DNA of 64,000 nucleotides from Phycisphaerae bacterium (GTDB lineage: Bacteria; Planctomycetota; Phycisphaerae; Phycisphaerales; SM1A02). The DNA is taken from NCBI GenBank assembly GCA_002716385.1, contig PBAX01000015.1:1-64000 (forward strand), read 5' to 3'. The notes under the pieces are model-generated. The model made no database searches. It was given only the letters and a program-made list of their open reading frames with translations, and was not told the DNA's origin. This document shows, piece by piece, positions 17,214 to 49,880 of the stretch. Position 1 is the first letter of the stretch; each line of letters opens with the position of its first letter. A program made the translations under genes and the position numbers.

Positions 17214-19826
17214 GTGAATACGAAGCGTCTTATCAAAGTAGTGGGTTCCCTGATCGGTGCCCTTTCCCTTGGCTCAGCAGCCAATGCCATGAATCTGAAT
17301 GAGCCGGAAGGGGCCTGTTGTTATACCGATCCAGCTGGGGACCTCGTCTGCGACATGCTCACCGAGCATGTCTGCATGGATTACATGGGTGTCTGGTCTG
17401 GAGCCCATGTTCCATGTTCGGATATCCATTGTGATGACAATGATCCAAATCAAGGCGCCTGCTGCTACGAGGATGCCGGTCTTGGTCTGGTCTGTGACGA
17501 GCTTTTTCAGGATGAATGTCTCGGCCTGAATGGCTATTTCTACGGATCGGGCGTCCCATGTGGCGCTCCCCAGGTCGAATGTCCGTCAATCGAGGACATC
17601 GGCGCATGCTGCTACAACACTCCGGATGGATGGGTCTGCGATCTCAGGATCGAAGAGCATTGCATCGATGTCGGCGGCATGTGGTACGGGCCGGGTTCCG
17701 ATTGCAACGATCCTCAGATCTACTGCAGCAACGAGCCGCTGACCGGTGCCTGCTGCTACGAGGATCCCGATCTTGGTCTGATCTGTGCGGAAATGGAACA
17801 GGAACTCTGTCTGGACGTGAATGGCTACTACTACGGACACAATGTTGTCTGCACGGATCCCCAGGTCGAATGCGACGTTCCTGAGAAGGGTGCCTGCTGC
17901 TACAAGGATGCCGACAACAATCCATTCTGTGACGAGCTCAATCAGAACGACTGCCAGGATCTGAATGGTCTCTGGTACGGATCCGGCGTTCTCTGCACGG
18001 ACCCGATTGTCGAGTGTGGTGATGTTGCTGACGATCCGGGTGCCTGCTGCTACGACGATCCCGACCTCGGATTCATCTGTGCCATGCTCATCCAGGAGCA
18101 CTGCATCGATCTCAACGGCTATTGGTATGGTGCCGGTGTCTCCTGCACGGATCCGCAGGTCGAATGCGATCTTCCGAGTGGTGATTGCATCATCCAGCCG
18201 GGTGCAGAGTGTGCCGGTCGTCCTTCCTACATCGATCCCGAATTCTCACAGGTCTTTGGTTCGGGGCCCGTGGCGGTACAGACTGCTTCCCCCAACATCT
18301 TCCAGGCCAACGTTCTCACCGTATTCGATCTGAGCAATGCCAATACCGCCCCGGTCGATTCATGGTGGAGTCTCGAACGTTACAGCGATCCTGACTGGAA
18401 CCAGAACAATCTCGGCAGCATCTTCGGTCTGGCTCTCGATGACGATGGCGACATCTTCGTCACCAGCACACGCTCCTGGAACAGCGACTGGCCGGGTATT
18501 GGTGGCTGGGGTGCCGTCTATCGGATCGATCGCTACACCGGCGACATCAGCGTCTTCGCCACGCTTCCAAACACGACCAGCGGTCTGGGAAGCATCGCCT
18601 GGGACTGCGAGCATCAGGTCTTCTTCGTGACCAACATGGAAGATGGGCTCATCTACCAGCTCGACGTCAACGGAAACATCCTCAGCACCTTCGATCCCGC
18701 ACTTCCATGGAATGGTGCTGCTGGCCCTGTCGCACTCGGCGATCGTCCCTGGGCTGTCGAGGTGCATGCCGGTCGACTCTACTTCTCGATGTGGAACGAG
18801 CACATCGATTCCGGCACCAACGCCTCCTCCAACGAGATCTGGTCGGTGGAACTCGATGCAAGCGGTACGCCAGTCGGTGTCGAGCAGCTTGAGATCACCA
18901 TCCCGAGCTACCAGTCCACCAATTGGAGTTCGCCCGTATCGGACATCCGATTCTCACCACGTGGAACCATGCTTCTGGCCGAGCGTTCCCAGACGAGCTT
19001 CGAGAGCCTTTCCGCTCACCGTGCACGTCTGCTTGAATACGAGTGCGAGGCTGGCGCATGGGTGCCAGGCAACACCTTCGGTGTCGGTGAAATCGGTGGC
19101 AACAATGCAAGTGGTGGTGTGGATGCCGATCTGGCACGCACATGGGCCAGTGGAGATGCTCTTCACCTGAACCATCCTGCTCCCTACTCCAACATCTATG
19201 GCTTCGCAGGTATTCCGGCAACCGGTGGCGATGTGACCAACAGTGTCCTCGTCGACTACCAGGACAATCTCATTGCTCAGGACAAGACCATGATCGGCGA
19301 TCTCGTCGTGACCAAGGCAGCTCCCGAGCCATGCATGAATCTCAACCACTTCGGTACTCACTGCCGCTTCCATCATCACAACGGCATGTATCACAAGGTC
19401 GAGTTCGGATTCTCGGCAATCGGTGGCGGCACCATCGACGAGGTTCAGGTAACTGGTCCTGCTGGCACGTCCTTCGCGCCAGGCACTCTGGTCGGACCAT
19501 TCGCTCCCTACCAGAGCTATCCCGTCAGCGTGAAGATGTTCGATGCTCCAGCTGGCCAGGAGGTCTGCCTGACCCTGACCGCCGTATTCGCCGACGGCAC
19601 GATCTGTGAACAGGAGCTCTGCTTCGTGACTCCTTACTGCCACATCCATCAGCCAGGCGATGTCAATGCCGACTTCGAAGTCGACATCACCGATCTACTC
19701 ACCATCATCGAGAACTGGGGCGGCCAGTGTGATGGCGAAGAGGATTGTGTCGCCGACCAGAACGGCGATGGCACCGTCGGCATCGGTGACCTGCTCGTGG
19801 TATTGGACAACTGGACCAGCCGCTGA
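17214..19826 (+). CDS. Secreted protein with six 6-Cys GACCY repeats, propeller-like domain and C-terminal duplicated dockerin-like module
   Basis: GTG start VNTKRLIKVVGSLIGALSLGSAANA; six 'GACCY...C...C...GxWYGxGVxCTDPQVEC' units; C-terminus 'PGDVNADFEVDITDLLTIIENWGGQCDGEEDCVADQNGDGTVGIGDLLVVLDNWTSR'. Confidence 0.8.
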   Translation: MNTKRLIKVVGSLIGALSLGSAANAMNLNEPEGACCYTDPAGDLVCDMLTEHVCMDYMGVWSGAHVPCSDIHCDDNDPNQGACCYEDAGLGLVCDELFQDECLGLNGYFYGSGVPCGAPQVECPSIEDIGACCYNTPDGWVCDLRIEEHCIDVGGMWYGPGSDCNDPQIYCSNEPLTGACCYEDPDLGLICAEMEQELCLDVNGYYYGHNVVCTDPQVECDVPEKGACCYKDADNNPFCDELNQNDCQDLNGLWYGSGVLCTDPIVECGDVADDPGACCYDDPDLGFICAMLIQEHCIDLNGYWYGAGVSCTDPQVECDLPSGDCIIQPGAECAGRPSYIDPEFSQVFGSGPVAVQTASPNIFQANVLTVFDLSNANTAPVDSWWSLERYSDPDWNQNNLGSIFGLALDDDGDIFVTSTRSWNSDWPGIGGWGAVYRIDRYTGDISVFATLPNTTSGLGSIAWDCEHQVFFVTNMEDGLIYQLDVNGNILSTFDPALPWNGAAGPVALGDRPWAVEVHAGRLYFSMWNEHIDSGTNASSNEIWSVELDASGTPVGVEQLEITIPSYQSTNWSSPVSDIRFSPRGTMLLAERSQTSFESLSAHRARLLEYECEAGAWVPGNTFGVGEIGGNNASGGVDADLARTWASGDALHLNHPAPYSNIYGFAGIPATGGDVTNSVLVDYQDNLIAQDKTMIGDLVVTKAAPEPCMNLNHFGTHCRFHHHNGMYHKVEFGFSAIGGGTIDEVQVTGPAGTSFAPGTLVGPFAPYQSYPVSVKMFDAPAGQEVCLTLTAVFADGTICEQELCFVTPYCHIHQPGDVNADFEVDITDLLTIIENWGGQCDGEEDCVADQNGDGTVGIGDLLVVLDNWTSR
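17310..18168 (+). repeat. Array of six protein-level repeats (about 48 aa, six Cys each)
   Basis: GACCYTDPAGDLVCDM / GACCYEDAGLGLVCDE / GACCYNTPDGWVCDL / GACCYEDPDLGLICAE / GACCYKDADNNPFCDE / GACCYDDPDLGFICAM. Confidence 0.92.
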
Positions 19827-19883: not shown

Positions 19884-20327
19884 TCATTTTTTGGCAAAGT
19901 CCATCCAGAGTTCCTGCATCGGCCTACGTAGGATCAATCGGCCTTGGAGCAGCGAGCGATCGAAGTTGACGAAGCCATTGACCAGATAGATCTCCTCTGG
20001 AGTGCAGTTCCAGAGAAGATCGACCTCCTGATCCTGCTTCACGTGGTCTCTGGTCATGATCAGGGCCGTGAGCCCGGTAGAACCTGTGCCTGACCAGACA
20101 TCGGCGGGCTCGCCATCACCGCCCACGGTGCCTGGCAGGGAGCCGTAGTCGATCGGATAGATGATCGAGGGGTGTTTGGGATGAGGGGTCGCTCTGGGAC
20201 GATCGATCTCGACGCCCCGATCGTTCAGGATCGATTCCCAGTGTTCCCAATTGAAATCCAGAACCGGTGCATCGATGGATGGTGGGATTGTCGGCAGTTG
20301 TTCCCATGTGAGTCGGTCAGGATTCAT
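19884..20327 (-). CDS. Inorganic pyrophosphatase-like protein
   Basis: 'PSIIYPIDYGSLPGTVGGDGEPADVWSGTGSTGLTALIMTRDHVKQDQEVDLLWNCTPEE' resembles family I PPase core. Confidence 0.55.
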   Translation of the reverse strand: MNPDRLTWEQLPTIPPSIDAPVLDFNWEHWESILNDRGVEIDRPRATPHPKHPSIIYPIDYGSLPGTVGGDGEPADVWSGTGSTGLTALIMTRDHVKQDQEVDLLWNCTPEEIYLVNGFVNFDRSLLQGRLILRRPMQELWMDFAKK

Positions 20328-20373
20328 GGCAGCACTGCCTGGCCAATGCGATGATCGAGATAGCAGGAATGGA

Positions 20374-21150
20374 TCAGCATTCGTTCCACGTGTCGATGAT
20401 CAGAAGGATGTCGGCGACATCGACATTTCCGCTGCCGTCGACGTCGCCATCGCCTGATCCGAGCCCGAACTGGGCAATGACCAGAAGCAGGTCGTTGACA
20501 TCCGTCGTTCCGTCGCCGTTCGTATCCGTTGGGCACTCGCAGTCATCCGGAATGCCGTTGCCGTCGATGTCCTGTGAATCGCCTTCTTCGATGTCGGTGT
20601 CATCAGGTATGCCGTTGGCGTTGCAGTCTGGCGAGGCGTAGAGAATGAGGCAGGCGCCCTGAACGGATCCGGCATCCACCGGTGAGGCGTCCGTGAATTC
20701 GACGATCCACTCGCCCTGAGCTGGCAACCCTATGAAGGTTGCAAGGGGTTCCGCCGGCATCATCACGCCGTGCATCACCGGAACCTCGGTGATGGAACAC
20801 ATGGATTCGCCCACGACCGTTGCGTCGTCATCGAAGAAGCCGTCTATGTCGTCGCCTCCACAGCCCCAGGGGCCAATCCAGCCTCCATTGGGCATGCCAG
20901 GTCTGTCAATGATCGTGACGGGGGTTCCATCCGGTGAACGCAGGACGATCTCCAGATCGCCAACCCATGGATGGGTCACATCCAGATGAAGGCGAGCCTC
21001 GGTGACGATTCCATCCATATCGACGGGGATGGTCCATGCGGTCGAACTGCTGCCGTCGTCTGGGATCTGGGATGGGCCGTTGCCGCAGAATGTCGAGCCA
21101 CAGGCGAGGCTTGCGGGCAGGAGAGGCAGGATCAGAAGTGATGTGTTCAT
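20374..21150 (-). CDS. Secreted P/Homo-B domain protein with NGIPD repeats and C-terminal dockerin-like module
   Basis: 'LHLDVTHPWVGDLEIVLRSPDGTPVTIIDRPG...GEWIVEFTDASPVDAGSVQGACLILY'; 'DCNANGIPDDTDIEEGDSQDIDGNGIPDDCECPTDTNGDGTTDVNDLLLVIAQFG...DVDGSGNVDVADILLIIDTWNEC'. Confidence 0.82.
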   Translation of the reverse strand: MNTSLLILPLLPASLACGSTFCGNGPSQIPDDGSSSTAWTIPVDMDGIVTEARLHLDVTHPWVGDLEIVLRSPDGTPVTIIDRPGMPNGGWIGPWGCGGDDIDGFFDDDATVVGESMCSITEVPVMHGVMMPAEPLATFIGLPAQGEWIVEFTDASPVDAGSVQGACLILYASPDCNANGIPDDTDIEEGDSQDIDGNGIPDDCECPTDTNGDGTTDVNDLLLVIAQFGLGSGDGDVDGSGNVDVADILLIIDTWNEC

Positions 21151-23075
21151 CTCGCCGCCTCCGTATCCATCTCGCCGCTACGGTTCGTGTCATCGACTTC
21201 ACGTGGTTCCGTCATGTTCTTGATGTGGCACCAGCCGAGGGTGGTCCCCATGTTGTTGGCGCCATCGAGATCGCCTTCGGAATTCTCCACGACGCCATCG
21301 TCGGGATCCCAGAGGACGAGATCGGTGAGGAAGTGGCAGTAGTCGTAGGACCACCATTCATCCTCCACGGTGGACGTCCAAGTCCAGGTGTTCTGACGGG
21401 TGCTGGTGGGAATGTATGAAAGCCATTCGGCGGCACCGTCGTAGGTCATGTCGTAGTTGACACCGCAACCGAATCCGAAGAGTTCCCCGAGGATAGACAG
21501 GTTTCCGGCCAATGCCGTTCCCGAGAATGGGCTTCCCAGACACTGGAGGAGGCGTCCGTTGCCGGCCCAGTCCAGCCCGCTCCAGTAGAAGGTGTACAGG
21601 TGAACGGCTGCATTGCCGCCTTGCGAGTGACCGACCAGACCATAGCTCTTGTATTGGCTGCCGAAGGAGATGAAGTCCTGAGCGAATTCGTCGTGGGAGA
21701 AGTTCTGGAACATGTTGATGTATTCAGCCACATCGCCGGTGAAATCAGTTGGATTCCACGAGTCGGCATCAGAGCAGTAGCCATGACTGATCATCAGATT
21801 GTGCCCACCGTATCGATCCGAACGCGATGGATGGGAGCGGGTCGACGCTGGGATTCTGAAGCCGCCCAGATCGCCCTTGCCGTGTCTCATCGTATGAATG
21901 GTGGAACTGTTTAGATCGAGTTTCATGGGGACATCGGTGTTTTCGAGCAGGATTGAATCGACCGGACCTGATGCGAGCAGGGGTCTGGCGGCATGCGGGG
22001 ATGCGATTCGAAGTGAGCGAAGCGTCAGGGATTCGCCGTTTCCCCCCTCGGTGGCAAGCCAGCGGCGATCCAGCACCAGTGTCACCCGGCCGTCTTCAAC
22101 AGGACAGATGCCTCCAATCCAGCATCTGGGCTGCAGGCCTCCTGTGCCCAGGCTCCACACTTCCGAACCAAGGAGCAGCGTAGGACGCTCGGTGGCGTAC
22201 GCGAGCATGAGATCGATGGCCAACCGTTCCTCGTCCAGTTCGCGTGTCGCGATCCCCGTTATCTCAACCGGATATTCGGCATGAAAGTGATGGATGCCGG
22301 TTCGAAGGAACTGGTTGCCTTGTGAATCGATGCCCTCGATCTGAAGTCGACATTCATGAGGCCCGTTTGTCCCCGGTGTGAAGGATTGTTCAAGCCATGG
22401 GCCCGAGCGGCCCATGGGTTCCTGGACGATCAACCCTTCAGGGCCGTGCCAGCTCATGGTGGCTCGAGTTATGTCGAGCCCTTCTGAAAAGGAGTGGACG
22501 GCATCGATGATCGGATTGCCAGTTGCATCGACCGGTGTCAGGGCGACACGCACGGTCTTCGCCTGGCCCACGATGGAGGCATATGAGGTCGGATGCATCT
22601 GCAGTGCGACACCGGAGCGATCCCGTATCAACAGATAACCAATCGATCCAGGCTCACCATCGGATATGGAAACCTCCCAATCACCGGCGATCGGGTATCG
22701 AACATCGAGTCTGACAGTCTCCTGAGGAAGGAACGGCTGCATGTCCCCTGGGGTGTGGGTCCAGTCCGGGCCATCCTGTTGACCGTTCGGATCCATGAAC
22801 TGGACATCCCATTCATGACATTTCTGGCCAATCGGGACCAGCGACAGATGCTGGCTGGTCGGGACCGGGATCTTTCGTCTCCAGTTTCCATGATCATCGA
22901 ATTCGATTGGAATCATGGCGTGGCCGAAGGGGCGTCCCACGGCGGTTGGATCCGGCGACCGCAGTCTTCCATTGAGGAGGTCCGAGGCGGGAGCGCCCAC
23001 ATGCTTGGGTGTCACATGAGTGGCGTCGCCGATCGCGAGCAGAGGCAGGATTAACAGATGGGGGAATGCCATCAA
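21147..23075 (-). CDS. Secreted alpha/beta-hydrolase (lipase/esterase)-like protein with long N-terminal region
   Basis: 'HNLMISHGYCSDADSWNP', nucleophile elbow 'YGLVGHSQGGNAAVHLYTFYWSG'; stop overlaps start of next minus gene (ATGA). Confidence 0.7.
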   Translation of the reverse strand: MMAFPHLLILPLLAIGDATHVTPKHVGAPASDLLNGRLRSPDPTAVGRPFGHAMIPIEFDDHGNWRRKIPVPTSQHLSLVPIGQKCHEWDVQFMDPNGQQDGPDWTHTPGDMQPFLPQETVRLDVRYPIAGDWEVSISDGEPGSIGYLLIRDRSGVALQMHPTSYASIVGQAKTVRVALTPVDATGNPIIDAVHSFSEGLDITRATMSWHGPEGLIVQEPMGRSGPWLEQSFTPGTNGPHECRLQIEGIDSQGNQFLRTGIHHFHAEYPVEITGIATRELDEERLAIDLMLAYATERPTLLLGSEVWSLGTGGLQPRCWIGGICPVEDGRVTLVLDRRWLATEGGNGESLTLRSLRIASPHAARPLLASGPVDSILLENTDVPMKLDLNSSTIHTMRHGKGDLGGFRIPASTRSHPSRSDRYGGHNLMISHGYCSDADSWNPTDFTGDVAEYINMFQNFSHDEFAQDFISFGSQYKSYGLVGHSQGGNAAVHLYTFYWSGLDWAGNGRLLQCLGSPFSGTALAGNLSILGELFGFGCGVNYDMTYDGAAEWLSYIPTSTRQNTWTWTSTVEDEWWSYDYCHFLTDLVLWDPDDGVVENSEGDLDGANNMGTTLGWCHIKNMTEPREVDDTNRSGEMDTEAAR

Positions 23076-23246: not shown

Positions 23247-25865
23247 TCAGTCGCATCGTCCCCAGTGATCGAGTGCGATGAGCAGGTCGTCGATGCCGAT
23301 GATTCCATCCTGATTGAGATCGGTTTCAGGACAGTCCCGGCAATTCCATTCACTGAGGATCTTCAGCATGTCATCGATGTCGATGAGTCTGTCGCCATTG
23401 GTGTCTCCGAGACACTCGCAGATATCAGGCACACCGTTGGCGTTGTCATCGATGACGAGCCCAAGCGCTATCTCACAGGTGTCCGGGCGACCGTTCATGT
23501 TGCAGTCGATGTCGCATTTCCCGCTGGTCCAGGCGCCCCCGAACTGCTCCAGGCACTGCATGTTCGAAATGCCCTCCTGGCATTCCATGTCGGATGTGCA
23601 GCATGTGCCGGCCATCGGAATATCAAGAGCGAGGAGATCCAGCGCTTCTCGTACGGCCTGTGTGAAATGTATCGTGTCGTCACCGGCATAGATGAGCGCG
23701 CCCTTCGAGACGGCGGCCAGTTCGTTGGCCTGCTGTGCCAGCTTGTCGCCGCCACCTGGCGACTCGTGGCCTTCACTGCCGAACATGCCCGAGGTGATGT
23801 CTGGTCCGCTCCAGGCGGCGTTCAGCGTGAAGATGCGTGGTGCTTCGGACATAACGGTCGGATTGGCAAGCTGGGCCAGAAGAGCGTTTCGGCCAGCTGC
23901 TTCACCGGTACCGCTTGGATAGTCCTCGACATCGGCATCGTGGAAATCGGCATCAGTCATGAGGAAGATGATCGGTGCCCTGTTGCTGTCCCATGAAAGT
24001 GGCTGTGGTGCGATTTCACCGAGATCGTTGAAGTCGTTGTCGTTGTTGAGATCCAGTCCGGTTCCCATCATGGCCTGATACAAAGCTTCATACTGCGATT
24101 CAGGGAGATCGGCGCCACCGCCGGCTGTCAGTGCGGCCAATGCGGCCGTGACAAGACCGGGGTTGCTGGTGAAGTCCTGACTGACGGCCCAGGCGACATC
24201 CCCATTCGAACCCGATGGAGCGATGGGAAAATCGGTGAAGCTCGCCACGCCATATCGCGGGTTTGGGAAGTCGTTGTCGATCATGCTCATGACGGAAGGC
24301 ATCTGGGCAAGCATGTTGGGAAGGTCGTCCCAGTAGCTGCCAGAGGTGTCGAAGATGAACAGTACATCCAGTTCCCTCGTCTCCTCGATTGGAAGCGCTC
24401 TGACTGTGAGATCAACGGTCATTGGAAGTCCGCAATTCGAGATGTTCGAGATCTTCACGCCGGTATCTACGTTGGAGTAGGGGCGTGAGTTCGGTGTCGA
24501 GTTCGAATCGAAGTTCGAGACTGTCGCCAGCGAGTAGAGGTCGTCCGCATCTCCTCGGTTGGCTGATGACTCGAGATCGCAGAACGCATCAGCCTGCTCC
24601 AGAGCGATCATGCTGTGGGCGGCACCCGGAGCACCATTGCACCAACCGAAGTTGTTGCCCGTGTTCACGGATGGGTCCACATGCCAGATCGCCAGCCCGC
24701 ATCCCCACAGATTCTGGTCGAAGCCAAGTGGCTGTCGATTCTCGATCAGCAGATATTCACTGCTGTTGGGATCGTTCTTGATCTTCAATGCAAACGGCGT
24801 TGTCTCGATGGCCGGTATCGAGAGATTCGAATAGTCGCCGATCACAAGCTGGGGTTCGATCCAACCCATCTCCGCACGACACCAGGCCGACATGTGAGCA
24901 GGACTGCTGGAGCTGTTCCAGTTACCTGATGCCATGAGGCAGAAGTGTCCGCATCCTTCGTTGGCAGAGCCGTTGGTGCCGTAGAGATCGGGCAGCCCAA
25001 GCGCATGTCCGAATTCATGGCAGAAGACGCCGATTTCGATTAGTGAGCCGCCGCATGACAGGGCCGGCATGATGGTGTAATCGCTGATTCGGATGAACCC
25101 GCCTCCGGCAGCTGCGTCGTTGGTTGAGAACAACGCAGGTGTTCCATTGGCTACGGAATTCGCGCTTGCATAGTTCCAGCGGTGCGACCAGATGTTTCCA
25201 TTCCCGCATTCACCTCCTGTTTCAGGGTGCACCAGTGCAACCAGATCGACGATGCCGTCGTCATCACCAGAGTTCGGAATACCATCCGGGCCATCATTGT
25301 CGTACATGCTGAAATCGATGTTGGCGTCGGCGAGCGTCAGTGCTTCATCCACGTATGAGAATGGAGCTGCATTCAGTCCATTGACGCCTGCTTCGTAGTT
25401 CGTGTCGTTGGACGATAGATTGCCGATGTTCACGACGTCCCCGTCGAACGTGAATTGTCCATAGGAGATTTCGCGGTAATAGTCCGAAAGTGTTCCGGTC
25501 GGCCACGGTCCGTCGAATAGTTCCTGTTGGAGATTCGGGACCGTATTGGCGGGAAGATTGACATTGTTGAATCCGAAGCAGAGAACAGGCACTTCAAGTA
25601 CGCCGGTCACGGCATCGGATGCACCACCACGTTTCGTGACATCATTCCGGTTCCTCTTGGCATCTTTGGCCTTGGCCCTCCATGCCCCCGGCGTGTCGAA
25701 TGACACCTGACTTCTAAGGGCATGTGCTCGGACATGTTCAGGTGCATGAGTACCAGGGCGTGGTGAGGTGGTCGCCAGGCAATCCGGATTCGAGAAGAGG
25801 GATACGATCGGTATCGCCAGCGCGCTTAGCATCGCGTGCCGGCCGTTATTGGTCAGATAGTTCAT
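23247..25865 (-). CDS. M6-family metalloprotease with vWA-like domain, 6-Cys module and C-terminal dockerin-like module
   Basis: 'GVFCHEFGHALGLPDLYGTNG' zinc motif; 'LDVLFIFDTSGSYWDDLPNML' vWA-like; 'TCCTSDMECQEGISNMQCLEQFGGAWTSGKCDIDC'; 'CLGDTNGDRLIDIDDMLKILSEWNCRDCPETDLNQDGIIGIDDLLIALDHWG'. Confidence 0.88.
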   Translation of the reverse strand: MNYLTNNGRHAMLSALAIPIVSLFSNPDCLATTSPRPGTHAPEHVRAHALRSQVSFDTPGAWRAKAKDAKRNRNDVTKRGGASDAVTGVLEVPVLCFGFNNVNLPANTVPNLQQELFDGPWPTGTLSDYYREISYGQFTFDGDVVNIGNLSSNDTNYEAGVNGLNAAPFSYVDEALTLADANIDFSMYDNDGPDGIPNSGDDDGIVDLVALVHPETGGECGNGNIWSHRWNYASANSVANGTPALFSTNDAAAGGGFIRISDYTIMPALSCGGSLIEIGVFCHEFGHALGLPDLYGTNGSANEGCGHFCLMASGNWNSSSSPAHMSAWCRAEMGWIEPQLVIGDYSNLSIPAIETTPFALKIKNDPNSSEYLLIENRQPLGFDQNLWGCGLAIWHVDPSVNTGNNFGWCNGAPGAAHSMIALEQADAFCDLESSANRGDADDLYSLATVSNFDSNSTPNSRPYSNVDTGVKISNISNCGLPMTVDLTVRALPIEETRELDVLFIFDTSGSYWDDLPNMLAQMPSVMSMIDNDFPNPRYGVASFTDFPIAPSGSNGDVAWAVSQDFTSNPGLVTAALAALTAGGGADLPESQYEALYQAMMGTGLDLNNDNDFNDLGEIAPQPLSWDSNRAPIIFLMTDADFHDADVEDYPSGTGEAAGRNALLAQLANPTVMSEAPRIFTLNAAWSGPDITSGMFGSEGHESPGGGDKLAQQANELAAVSKGALIYAGDDTIHFTQAVREALDLLALDIPMAGTCCTSDMECQEGISNMQCLEQFGGAWTSGKCDIDCNMNGRPDTCEIALGLVIDDNANGVPDICECLGDTNGDRLIDIDDMLKILSEWNCRDCPETDLNQDGIIGIDDLLIALDHWGRCD

Positions 25866-31839: not shown

Positions 31840-33819
31840 TTATCGTCTGGAAGCGGTGATCGATGGGCTGGTGTACAGCCAATCACGCGTCCACCAGTTC
31901 CCGCTCTGGGCATGTTCGTCAGATGTGGCGAACCGGTATCGGTACATGGTCCATCTGATCATCCGGGGCGGCGTTTCCGGGGTGAATGGGGAGGATTTCA
32001 GAAGCTTGAGCACGTGTGGATTCTGCTTCAGGAGTGCCTTGCATAACCGTGGCGTCACAAGGCCGGTGGTGAAGACTTCGACATCAGGTTTTCCCACAGC
32101 TGATGAGAAGTTGCTTGCGAGCCGATCGATGGAACCGCTTTCATGAACATATTCAAGCTTCAGTGCATCGAACCACATCTGCCAATCCAGCCGCGGCATG
32201 TCGGGCTGGCTCAGGCCGGGTGCTTCATCAAGCGGTCCAGGTTTCCAATGGAACTCGAAGGGGGACCAGCTCATCCCATCCAGAGACCCCTCGATGACAA
32301 TTTCCGGTCGAGTCTTCGTCATCACCCTGAACAGACCGTACGAGTTGACGATTCGGTACGGCCCCCAGATTGCGGACCATGCATCGGGAGGTTCGTTCTT
32401 CGACCTCAGTTGTGAAATGCTGATGGGAACGCTCAGACTCAGGAGAAGTGCGACCACGATCAGATTGAGACCCCGGCGACCAATGGTCTCTCTTCGAGGC
32501 AGTCCGACTCGAACCAGTCCCCGTACACGCTTAGGCCAGAGCAGAAGCAACTGACTGTCATCGAGGGCGACTACGCAGAGGACGAGTGTCAGCAAGTTGA
32601 AGAAGCCGTAGTTTCCGGTGAGAAGTATCCCGATCTGGAGGATGGCCAGTGCGACGAAGGCAATGAGGCGAGGGACTCTGGGGAAGAGAAGCAGAAAGGG
32701 GATGCCCATCTCGATGACGAACATCATGATGCATGAGAACTTCTGCCACCACAGTGGAAGTTGCCATGCATACCACGCTGGCCACCATGGCAATGGTTGC
32801 GTCCAGTAGTGGTAGTCGAGGGCCGTTAGATCCGCCCATGTCGGATCTCCGGATGCGAGTTTGACCCATCCCGAGAAGAACATGAATCGCAGCAGGAGCC
32901 ACAGGAACATCCATCGGATCAATGTGGAGGGTCGTCGGACACTCTTGCCGTTCAGTGTCCAAGAGAACGGGGCCCAGAAGATCGAGAGGAAGCCGATTTC
33001 AAGCAGAAGCATGTCCCACTGGTAGGACATGAAGAGTCCGCCAGAATTGACGAATGAGAGATAGGTGGCCCACGCGACAGCCAGCGTCAGCATGGGCAGG
33101 AGGCCAAGCACGACAAGCACGGATGCAATCGTGCCTGTCCACCAGAGAACGGTCGTCAGGGCCGGCATGTTTCCATCGGGATATGACAGCCAGAGAAGTG
33201 AAGGGCTGGAGACACCTCTGGCATCGAGCCATGCCAACAGCTCATCGGCCGGCTGCAGGCCGTTGCTGCCGATGAGGCCGTCCATCTGCCATCCGAAAGA
33301 GAGGAAGGCCAGCAGGAAGATGACTCCCAACAGTCGCATGAAGATCCGTCTTGTCAGAAGCGTCGTCGATGGTACTTCGATGGCCACCCAGCCCAGTCTC
33401 GCCAGACGATTCGCACCGGTTCTATGGTTGGCCACCAGGGAGTACTGCACATCGCATATCCATCTGAATGGGAGAAGATATCTGTAGAGCAGCAGTGGCC
33501 AGATTCTCAGATCGACCATCTTCATGAGTTCAAAGACGGCCTGTGCACCTCTGGTGTGATGCCCATCGGGATGAATCAGATGAATGGCTTTCTTGAATTC
33601 GGCTTCGGGAATTCCCGGAAACGTGCCGGCCGCCTTCTGGTACGGAGACCAGGCCAATCGGCCCGGAGGGCATATCGACTCATATCGCTTGAGCCAACGT
33701 CTGCAGAAACTACAGTCACCGTCGTACACGACCAGTGGCAGATTCGTCGGAAGCTCCGCTTCCGGCAGCAGTCCCTGACATGGACCGCCATCACAGGATT
33801 TGCATGTGCCGCAACCCAT
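31840..33819 (-). CDS. DCC (DUF393) domain fused to HTTM/lipase-maturation-factor-like multi-TM protein
   Basis: N-terminal 'LVVYDGDCSFCRRWLKRY' DCC motif; many TM helices with 'YLSFVNSGGLFMSYQWDMLLLEIGFLSIFWAP', 'FMFFSGWVKLASGDPTWADLTALDYHYWTQPLPWWPAWY', 'NYGFFNLLTLVLC'; C-terminal 'WMWFDALKL'-like soluble part. Confidence 0.85.
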   Translation of the reverse strand: MGCGTCKSCDGGPCQGLLPEAELPTNLPLVVYDGDCSFCRRWLKRYESICPPGRLAWSPYQKAAGTFPGIPEAEFKKAIHLIHPDGHHTRGAQAVFELMKMVDLRIWPLLLYRYLLPFRWICDVQYSLVANHRTGANRLARLGWVAIEVPSTTLLTRRIFMRLLGVIFLLAFLSFGWQMDGLIGSNGLQPADELLAWLDARGVSSPSLLWLSYPDGNMPALTTVLWWTGTIASVLVVLGLLPMLTLAVAWATYLSFVNSGGLFMSYQWDMLLLEIGFLSIFWAPFSWTLNGKSVRRPSTLIRWMFLWLLLRFMFFSGWVKLASGDPTWADLTALDYHYWTQPLPWWPAWYAWQLPLWWQKFSCIMMFVIEMGIPFLLLFPRVPRLIAFVALAILQIGILLTGNYGFFNLLTLVLCVVALDDSQLLLLWPKRVRGLVRVGLPRRETIGRRGLNLIVVALLLSLSVPISISQLRSKNEPPDAWSAIWGPYRIVNSYGLFRVMTKTRPEIVIEGSLDGMSWSPFEFHWKPGPLDEAPGLSQPDMPRLDWQMWFDALKLEYVHESGSIDRLASNFSSAVGKPDVEVFTTGLVTPRLCKALLKQNPHVLKLLKSSPFTPETPPRMIRWTMYRYRFATSDEHAQSGNWWTRDWLYTSPSITASRR

Positions 33820-45728: not shown

Positions 45729-49880
<4,152 letters not shown>

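Follow-up and report, generated by a model that had tools for sequence, protein, structure and literature searches.

We analysed a window of 64,000 nucleotides from a Phycisphaerales genome, in which a gene on the forward strand encodes six tandem cysteine-rich units, hereafter GACC units, followed by a large head region and a C-terminal dockerin (Table 1). The hydrophobic leader and the GTG start are also kept in the orthologues of this gene in Phycisphaerales UBA3158 (L009) and Phycisphaerae SP4365 (L010). The dockerin type I domain was recognised by Pfam family PF00404 at residues 815-864 of window:17211-19823, with an E-value of 2.3e-6 and 28.2 bits versus a gathering score of 22.9. Because no match to cohesin PF00963 was found in the array-carrying genome, which is 92% complete, this dockerin may serve as a surface attachment that works without a classic cohesin. 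The label of a propeller, which a preliminary description of this DNA had given to the protein, is not confirmed for the head region, where no Pfam family scores above its cut-off (WD40, at E 0.2, lies below it) and the sequence search of PDB gives no match; an AlphaFold model of the whole protein built on three orthologue sequences shows a beta-rich strand pattern, at a pLDDT of 40, and we base no claim on it.

Table 1. Features of the array gene and of a nearby metalloprotease gene in the window
Feature	Position	Strand	Basis or remark
Open reading frame of the array gene	GTG start 17214, stop 19826	+	Phycisphaerales genome window
GTG start and putative signal peptide MNTKRLIKVVGSLIGALSLGSAANA	17214..17288	+	sequence
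GACC unit 1, two residues short between C5 and C6	17310..17453	+
GACC unit 2	17454..17600	+
GACC unit 3	17601..17744	+
GACC unit 4	17745..17888	+
GACC unit 5	17889..18038	+
GACC unit 6	18039..18182	+	final Cys ends at about 18167
Beta-rich head, about 480 residues	18183..19640	+	low-confidence AlphaFold strands
C-terminal dockerin type I and stop	19653..19826	+	PF00404 match
M6-type metalloprotease gene near the array gene, with C-terminal dockerin-like motifs	23247-25865	-
Single degenerate GACC unit GTCCTSDMECQEGISNMQCLEQFGGAWTSGKCDIDC in the M6 metalloprotease	23502..23609	-	by pattern, below the profile-listing threshold

The units follow one another at 48, 49, 48, 48 and 50 codons, and the residues G1, A2, C3, C4, Y5, C14, C22, G27, G31, C36 and C41 are invariant in all six of them. 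Surface-type aromatic motifs (WYG or YYG) recur among the units. Against a profile of their own alignment the units score at E 1e-20 to 1e-26, and several reach E 1e-9 to 1e-12 against the broad family profile described below. The copies are 60-77% identical at the DNA level in their gap-free aligned parts, and all retain the six cysteines. The UBA3158 orthologue carries 6 units at 85% protein identity, and that of SP4365 carries 7 units at 63%. Since the cysteines have been kept despite such DNA identity and the orthologues keep 6 and 7 units, the array is not a product of chance. Both orthologues also share the gene order of the window: upstream comes a sulfatase-like frame, and the genes on the downstream side are homologous to three frames of the window, at 19887-20399 (whose sequence reads as a probable inorganic pyrophosphatase), 20377-21150 (a P-domain plus a dockerin) and 21150-23075. 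As the same gene with the same neighbours is found in both genomes, the six-unit array is real and conserved. The preliminary description had proposed six tandem six-cysteine units in a secreted, dockerin-ended protein, and this is borne out at 17310-18170, with some corrections of detail: the unit length given as 48 residues is strictly 48-50; the spacing formula is slightly inexact, its x(2)D after GACCY being x-D in 5/6 units; and the C-x-D-P-x-V-x-C ascribed to each unit is strict in 3/6 only. Two further features of the window may be recorded here. Positions 1-153, at the window edge, hold a tandem repeat of a 33-base unit (AAGACCACGGCC...), which would encode a lysine/alanine-rich stretch, and a SecA frame of 1383 residues lies at 45729-49880 on the + strand; because its SecA domain matches are spread apart, the sequence suggests that it carries insertions relative to the usual SecA.

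The six-unit profile retrieved more units within the same genome, and iterated profiles delineated a module of 37-43 residues, approximately GACC-x(4-10)-C-x(7-8)-C-x(12-14)-C-x(4-6)-C, with GACC-x5-C-x7-C-x13-C-x4-C as the modal pattern of the family. The modal spacing 5,7,13,4 was obtained both for 151 distinct planctomycete units and for 239 units pooled from the window, the orthologues and viral contigs; the window units mostly belong to a 9,7,13,6 variant. We defined a GACC module by GACC, three more spaced cysteines plus a terminal one, and a glycine five positions past the fourth cysteine, and all six window units show these features. In the 2.8 Mb genome from which the window comes, 22 reading frames together encode at least 74 units; 19 of these frames have a dockerin-like motif at the C-terminal end by reading, and the partner domains recognised by Pfam are reprolysin, M43, a trypsin-type protease, GSDH, beta helix, galactose-binding-like and FG-GAP domains. 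A threshold of E 1e-4 is passed by 22 of 392 genomes sampled across the Planctomycetota, with the highest density in the order to which the window belongs, and planctomycete arrays reach at least 13-15 units. Copy number varies, from 1 to 10 units per paralogue in the window's own genome and as 6, 6 and 7 among the orthologues, as would be expected if the array were a neutrally expanded linker whose length is its sole role; however, the copies have lost none of the six cysteines or of the glycines at 60-77% DNA identity, and the orthologues retain the array at 66-87% identity, which makes this explanation quite improbable.

The view of the preliminary description that this is a repeated disulfide-rich extracellular module of Planctomycetota secretomes, and an under-described one, agrees with our searches: 51 diverse units gave no meaningful match to Pfam or NCBIfam (the best stray hits, E 0.024-0.027, concern one member each), profile searches did not place the module in a well-characterised cysteine-rich repeat family, and no paper naming it was found in the open-licence literature. 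In scope, that description was incomplete, since the units of the window represent a variant, with longer loops, of a broader 37-residue module that forms arrays of 10-15 units elsewhere, and since the module also occurs in phage tail gene clusters and has a probable relative whose structure is known, namely the iRhom homology domain (IRHD). For the bacteria, the GACC module adds to the Phycisphaerales secretome a component that the family libraries we searched do not list.

The disulfide-rich fold envisaged for the unit is consistent with an AlphaFold model of unit 6 with 96 aligned rows, which has a pLDDT of 95.4 and a pTM of 0.70 and shows a beta hairpin (2-7/11-16) followed by a helix (19-24). 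Cysteines are lost in pairs in some members of the family, namely C1 with C4 in 4 units, C2 with C6 in 4 and C3 with C5 in 2, counts that are small and include cases related to each other; these three pairs are mutually exclusive and together partition the six cysteines exactly. Because these cysteines are lost together, the disulfides would be 1-4, 2-6 and 3-5. A VKOR homologue encoded in the genome could support disulfide formation. On the - strand of the window, at 31840-33819, a DCC1-like thiol-disulfide oxidoreductase is fused to lipase maturation factor (LMF1) domains, a fusion that may assist exported proteins rich in disulfides. Foldseek searches with the 43-residue unit model gave no match in PDB, iRhom included, and nothing significant among viral models, a query so short having little power.

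A pattern search of IMG/VR returned 92 stretches (L082-L173), dozens of which hold true units by profile. The viral GACC frames, found for example in contigs L097, L105, L117 and L136, are 450-1700 residues long, often consecutive, and carry one to twelve units each. On three viral contigs, frames adjoining the GACC genes match baseplate wedge and tail-fibre families of PHROG, those near long GACC frames being phrog_4492, phrog_219 and phrog_438, and one GACC-bearing frame itself matches tail-fibre families weakly. Because their neighbours match such families, the viral GACC frames probably encode tail proteins or adhesins of phages with contractile tails. Tblastn found no match for the array in plasmid or phage records, nor for two viral GACC proteins and a pair of GACC units in the phage records of INPHARED.

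Baseplate and tail-fibre clusters are a usual site of receptor-binding proteins, and the presence of the module among such genes raises the possibility that the array is a ligand-binding adhesin, whose units would bind a glycan or a surface protein and gain avidity by repetition. The aromatic WYG/YYG motifs of the window units would fit this, as would the binding of the ADAM17 prodomain by the IRHD (PMC11248996). However, apart from the cysteines, the glycines and the GA the family shows hardly any conserved residues and therefore gives no sign of a shared binding site; many GACC proteins, moreover, already have catalytic or binding domains. We thus regard this account as doubtful, though it is the least improbable of the alternatives considered here.

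In animals, iRhoms control the protease ADAM17, for which the IRHD acts as a protein-protein scaffold; within iRhoms this domain shows the highest conservation, and the release of TNF and EGF-receptor ligands through ADAM17 requires it. We compared GACC profiles with 177,635 PDB sequences, listing matches at E<=10. The 51-row profile retrieved four sequences, all of iRhom1 or iRhom2 (E 5e-4); the 98-row planctomycete profile reached iRhom at E 2.9e-5, together with a bacteriocin at E 1.8, the only non-iRhom match listed; and a 96-row, mostly viral profile gave iRhom1 at E 2.5e-6 and iRhom2 at E 7.4e-5 and nothing else. Chains of iRhom1 and iRhom2 (9xy4, 9q7y, 9o58 and 8snl) are thus the only PDB matches below E 1, and our iRhom1 query agrees letter by letter with chain 9xy4_A. 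The match covers the whole module in the C-terminal IRHD segment, CC-x6-C-x7-C-x13-C-x4-C, where all six cysteines and the invariant glycine are in register, and the same spacing, 6,7,13,4, is present among bacterial units. A profile-profile alignment by hhalign, in which the iRhom side consists of two sequences, gave a P-value of 3.6e-6 and a probability of 87%. Reciprocally, when six planctomycete genomes were queried with the segment of iRhom2, the hits were mainly GACC units, the best at E 9.7e-4 and 42% identity. The window array alone gave no match in a single-sequence PDB search; the iRhom link needs the wider family profile, which agrees with the IRHD sequence pattern while the window sequence by itself does not, and the IRHD matches no Pfam family. 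Nor does the array occupy the TM1-TM2 loop of a rhomboid-like protein: the window protein is of a secreted type with a dockerin; it is therefore no iRhom, though it may be related to the IRHD module.

Small disulfide-rich domains often converge, and the match could in principle reflect two unrelated short cysteine-rich folds that arrived independently at similar cysteine spacing and at a similar hairpin-helix sequence, as the wide taxonomic gap between planctomycetes or viruses and animals, the empty Foldseek search of PDB with its short, low-powered query and the weakness of the N-terminal IRHD unit in iRhom2 might lead one to think. However, most of the score comes from residues other than cysteine, since the real iRhom segment scores 30-40 bits and its shuffles with cysteines fixed score about 10 bits on average, and with the planctomycete-only, virus-only and joint profiles only 0-1 of 5000 shuffles of the C-terminal unit reach the real score. 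A profile of 62 units whose loops were reversed with cysteines fixed found no iRhom at E<=10, whereas the planctomycete-only and virus-only profiles each reach iRhom, and the best profile matches no other PDB chain at E<=10. We consider convergence unlikely, and infer that the GACC module and the IRHD share common descent.

The IRHD may even hold two copies of the module, because a cysteine group at its N-terminus, which reads CC-x7-C-x7-C-x29-C-x6-C in iRhom1, beats all shuffles in iRhom1 (0/5000 reach the score), although it is unconvincing in iRhom2 (59-220/5000); this group is likely a second, divergent GACC copy. The IRHD has been called unique among all known structural domains and was predicted to have two structured regions flanking an unstructured stretch (PMC8233286); it spans about 230 residues with 16 conserved cysteines (PMC6451368), and neither PDB nor the predicted human proteome was found to contain a similar structure (PMC11248996). 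With two structured regions and 16 conserved cysteines, the published description fits two modules. We found no open-licence paper linking the IRHD with planctomycetes. That the IRHD consists of two copies of the planctomycete and phage module, and that animals recruited a prokaryotic or viral module into an ADAM17 regulator, seems to us to have somewhat better than even chances. If this is true, the bacterial and phage relative would point to the evolutionary origin of the IRHD, and would supply a foldable unit of minimal size, about 40 residues long, an alignment deep enough to read the functional surface of the IRHD, and a testable disulfide map.

Taken as a whole, we think it reasonably probable that GACC is a disulfide-held extracellular module that acts as a spacer or adaptor, is shared with phage tails and is homologous to the modules of the IRHD. 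Each unit would be a beta hairpin plus a helix pinned by three disulfides, used singly or in arrays on secreted proteins of Phycisphaerales that usually end in a dockerin-like motif; in the array protein the order is putative signal peptide, six units, beta-rich head and dockerin. As to its role, for which the preliminary description had offered a stalk or an adhesion array, our view is an interpretive one: the array is most likely a rigid, protease-resistant spacer or a protein-binding adaptor, possibly adhesive, that would position functional parts such as proteases, beta helices, galactose-binding-like or FG-GAP domains; of the functional readings, that of a spacer or adaptor pinned by disulfides demands the least. 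The same module would also be used in phage tail proteins and would be homologous to the cysteine-rich modules that build the animal IRHD. In two genera a reprolysin (M12B) domain is directly followed by GACC units (L192:1519-4236, in the window's own genome, C8, and L197). GACC units occur in 2 of the 20 reprolysin loci that we fetched, so we rejected this link as a general rule and regard it as a minority architecture. ADAM17 belongs to the same reprolysin class, and because bacterial units follow directly on reprolysin in two genera, one may speculate that the module already served the docking of extracellular proteases.

Several known systems resemble the array protein in part. A cellulosome-like cohesin-dockerin system differs in that no cohesin was found in the array-carrying genome. 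Planctomycete proteins with dockerin type I (PF00404) or GC-type dockerin (NF041540) share their C-terminal domain or motif with the window protein and most GACC proteins of its genome, but the dockerin is a separate domain, and GACC also occurs without it, as in L188 and the viral contigs. Phage tail systems are similar in that long GACC frames lie near tail-fibre and baseplate genes in viral contigs, and differ in that no PHROG family was found that describes the GACC module itself. The IRHD differs in being a loop of a membrane-embedded pseudoprotease, whereas GACC forms a secreted array, and in having a long insert between C4 and C5 in its first copy, extra cysteines and a known partner, ADAM17; like the GACC module, however, it is extracellular and has the same cysteine pattern and glycine in its C-terminal segment.
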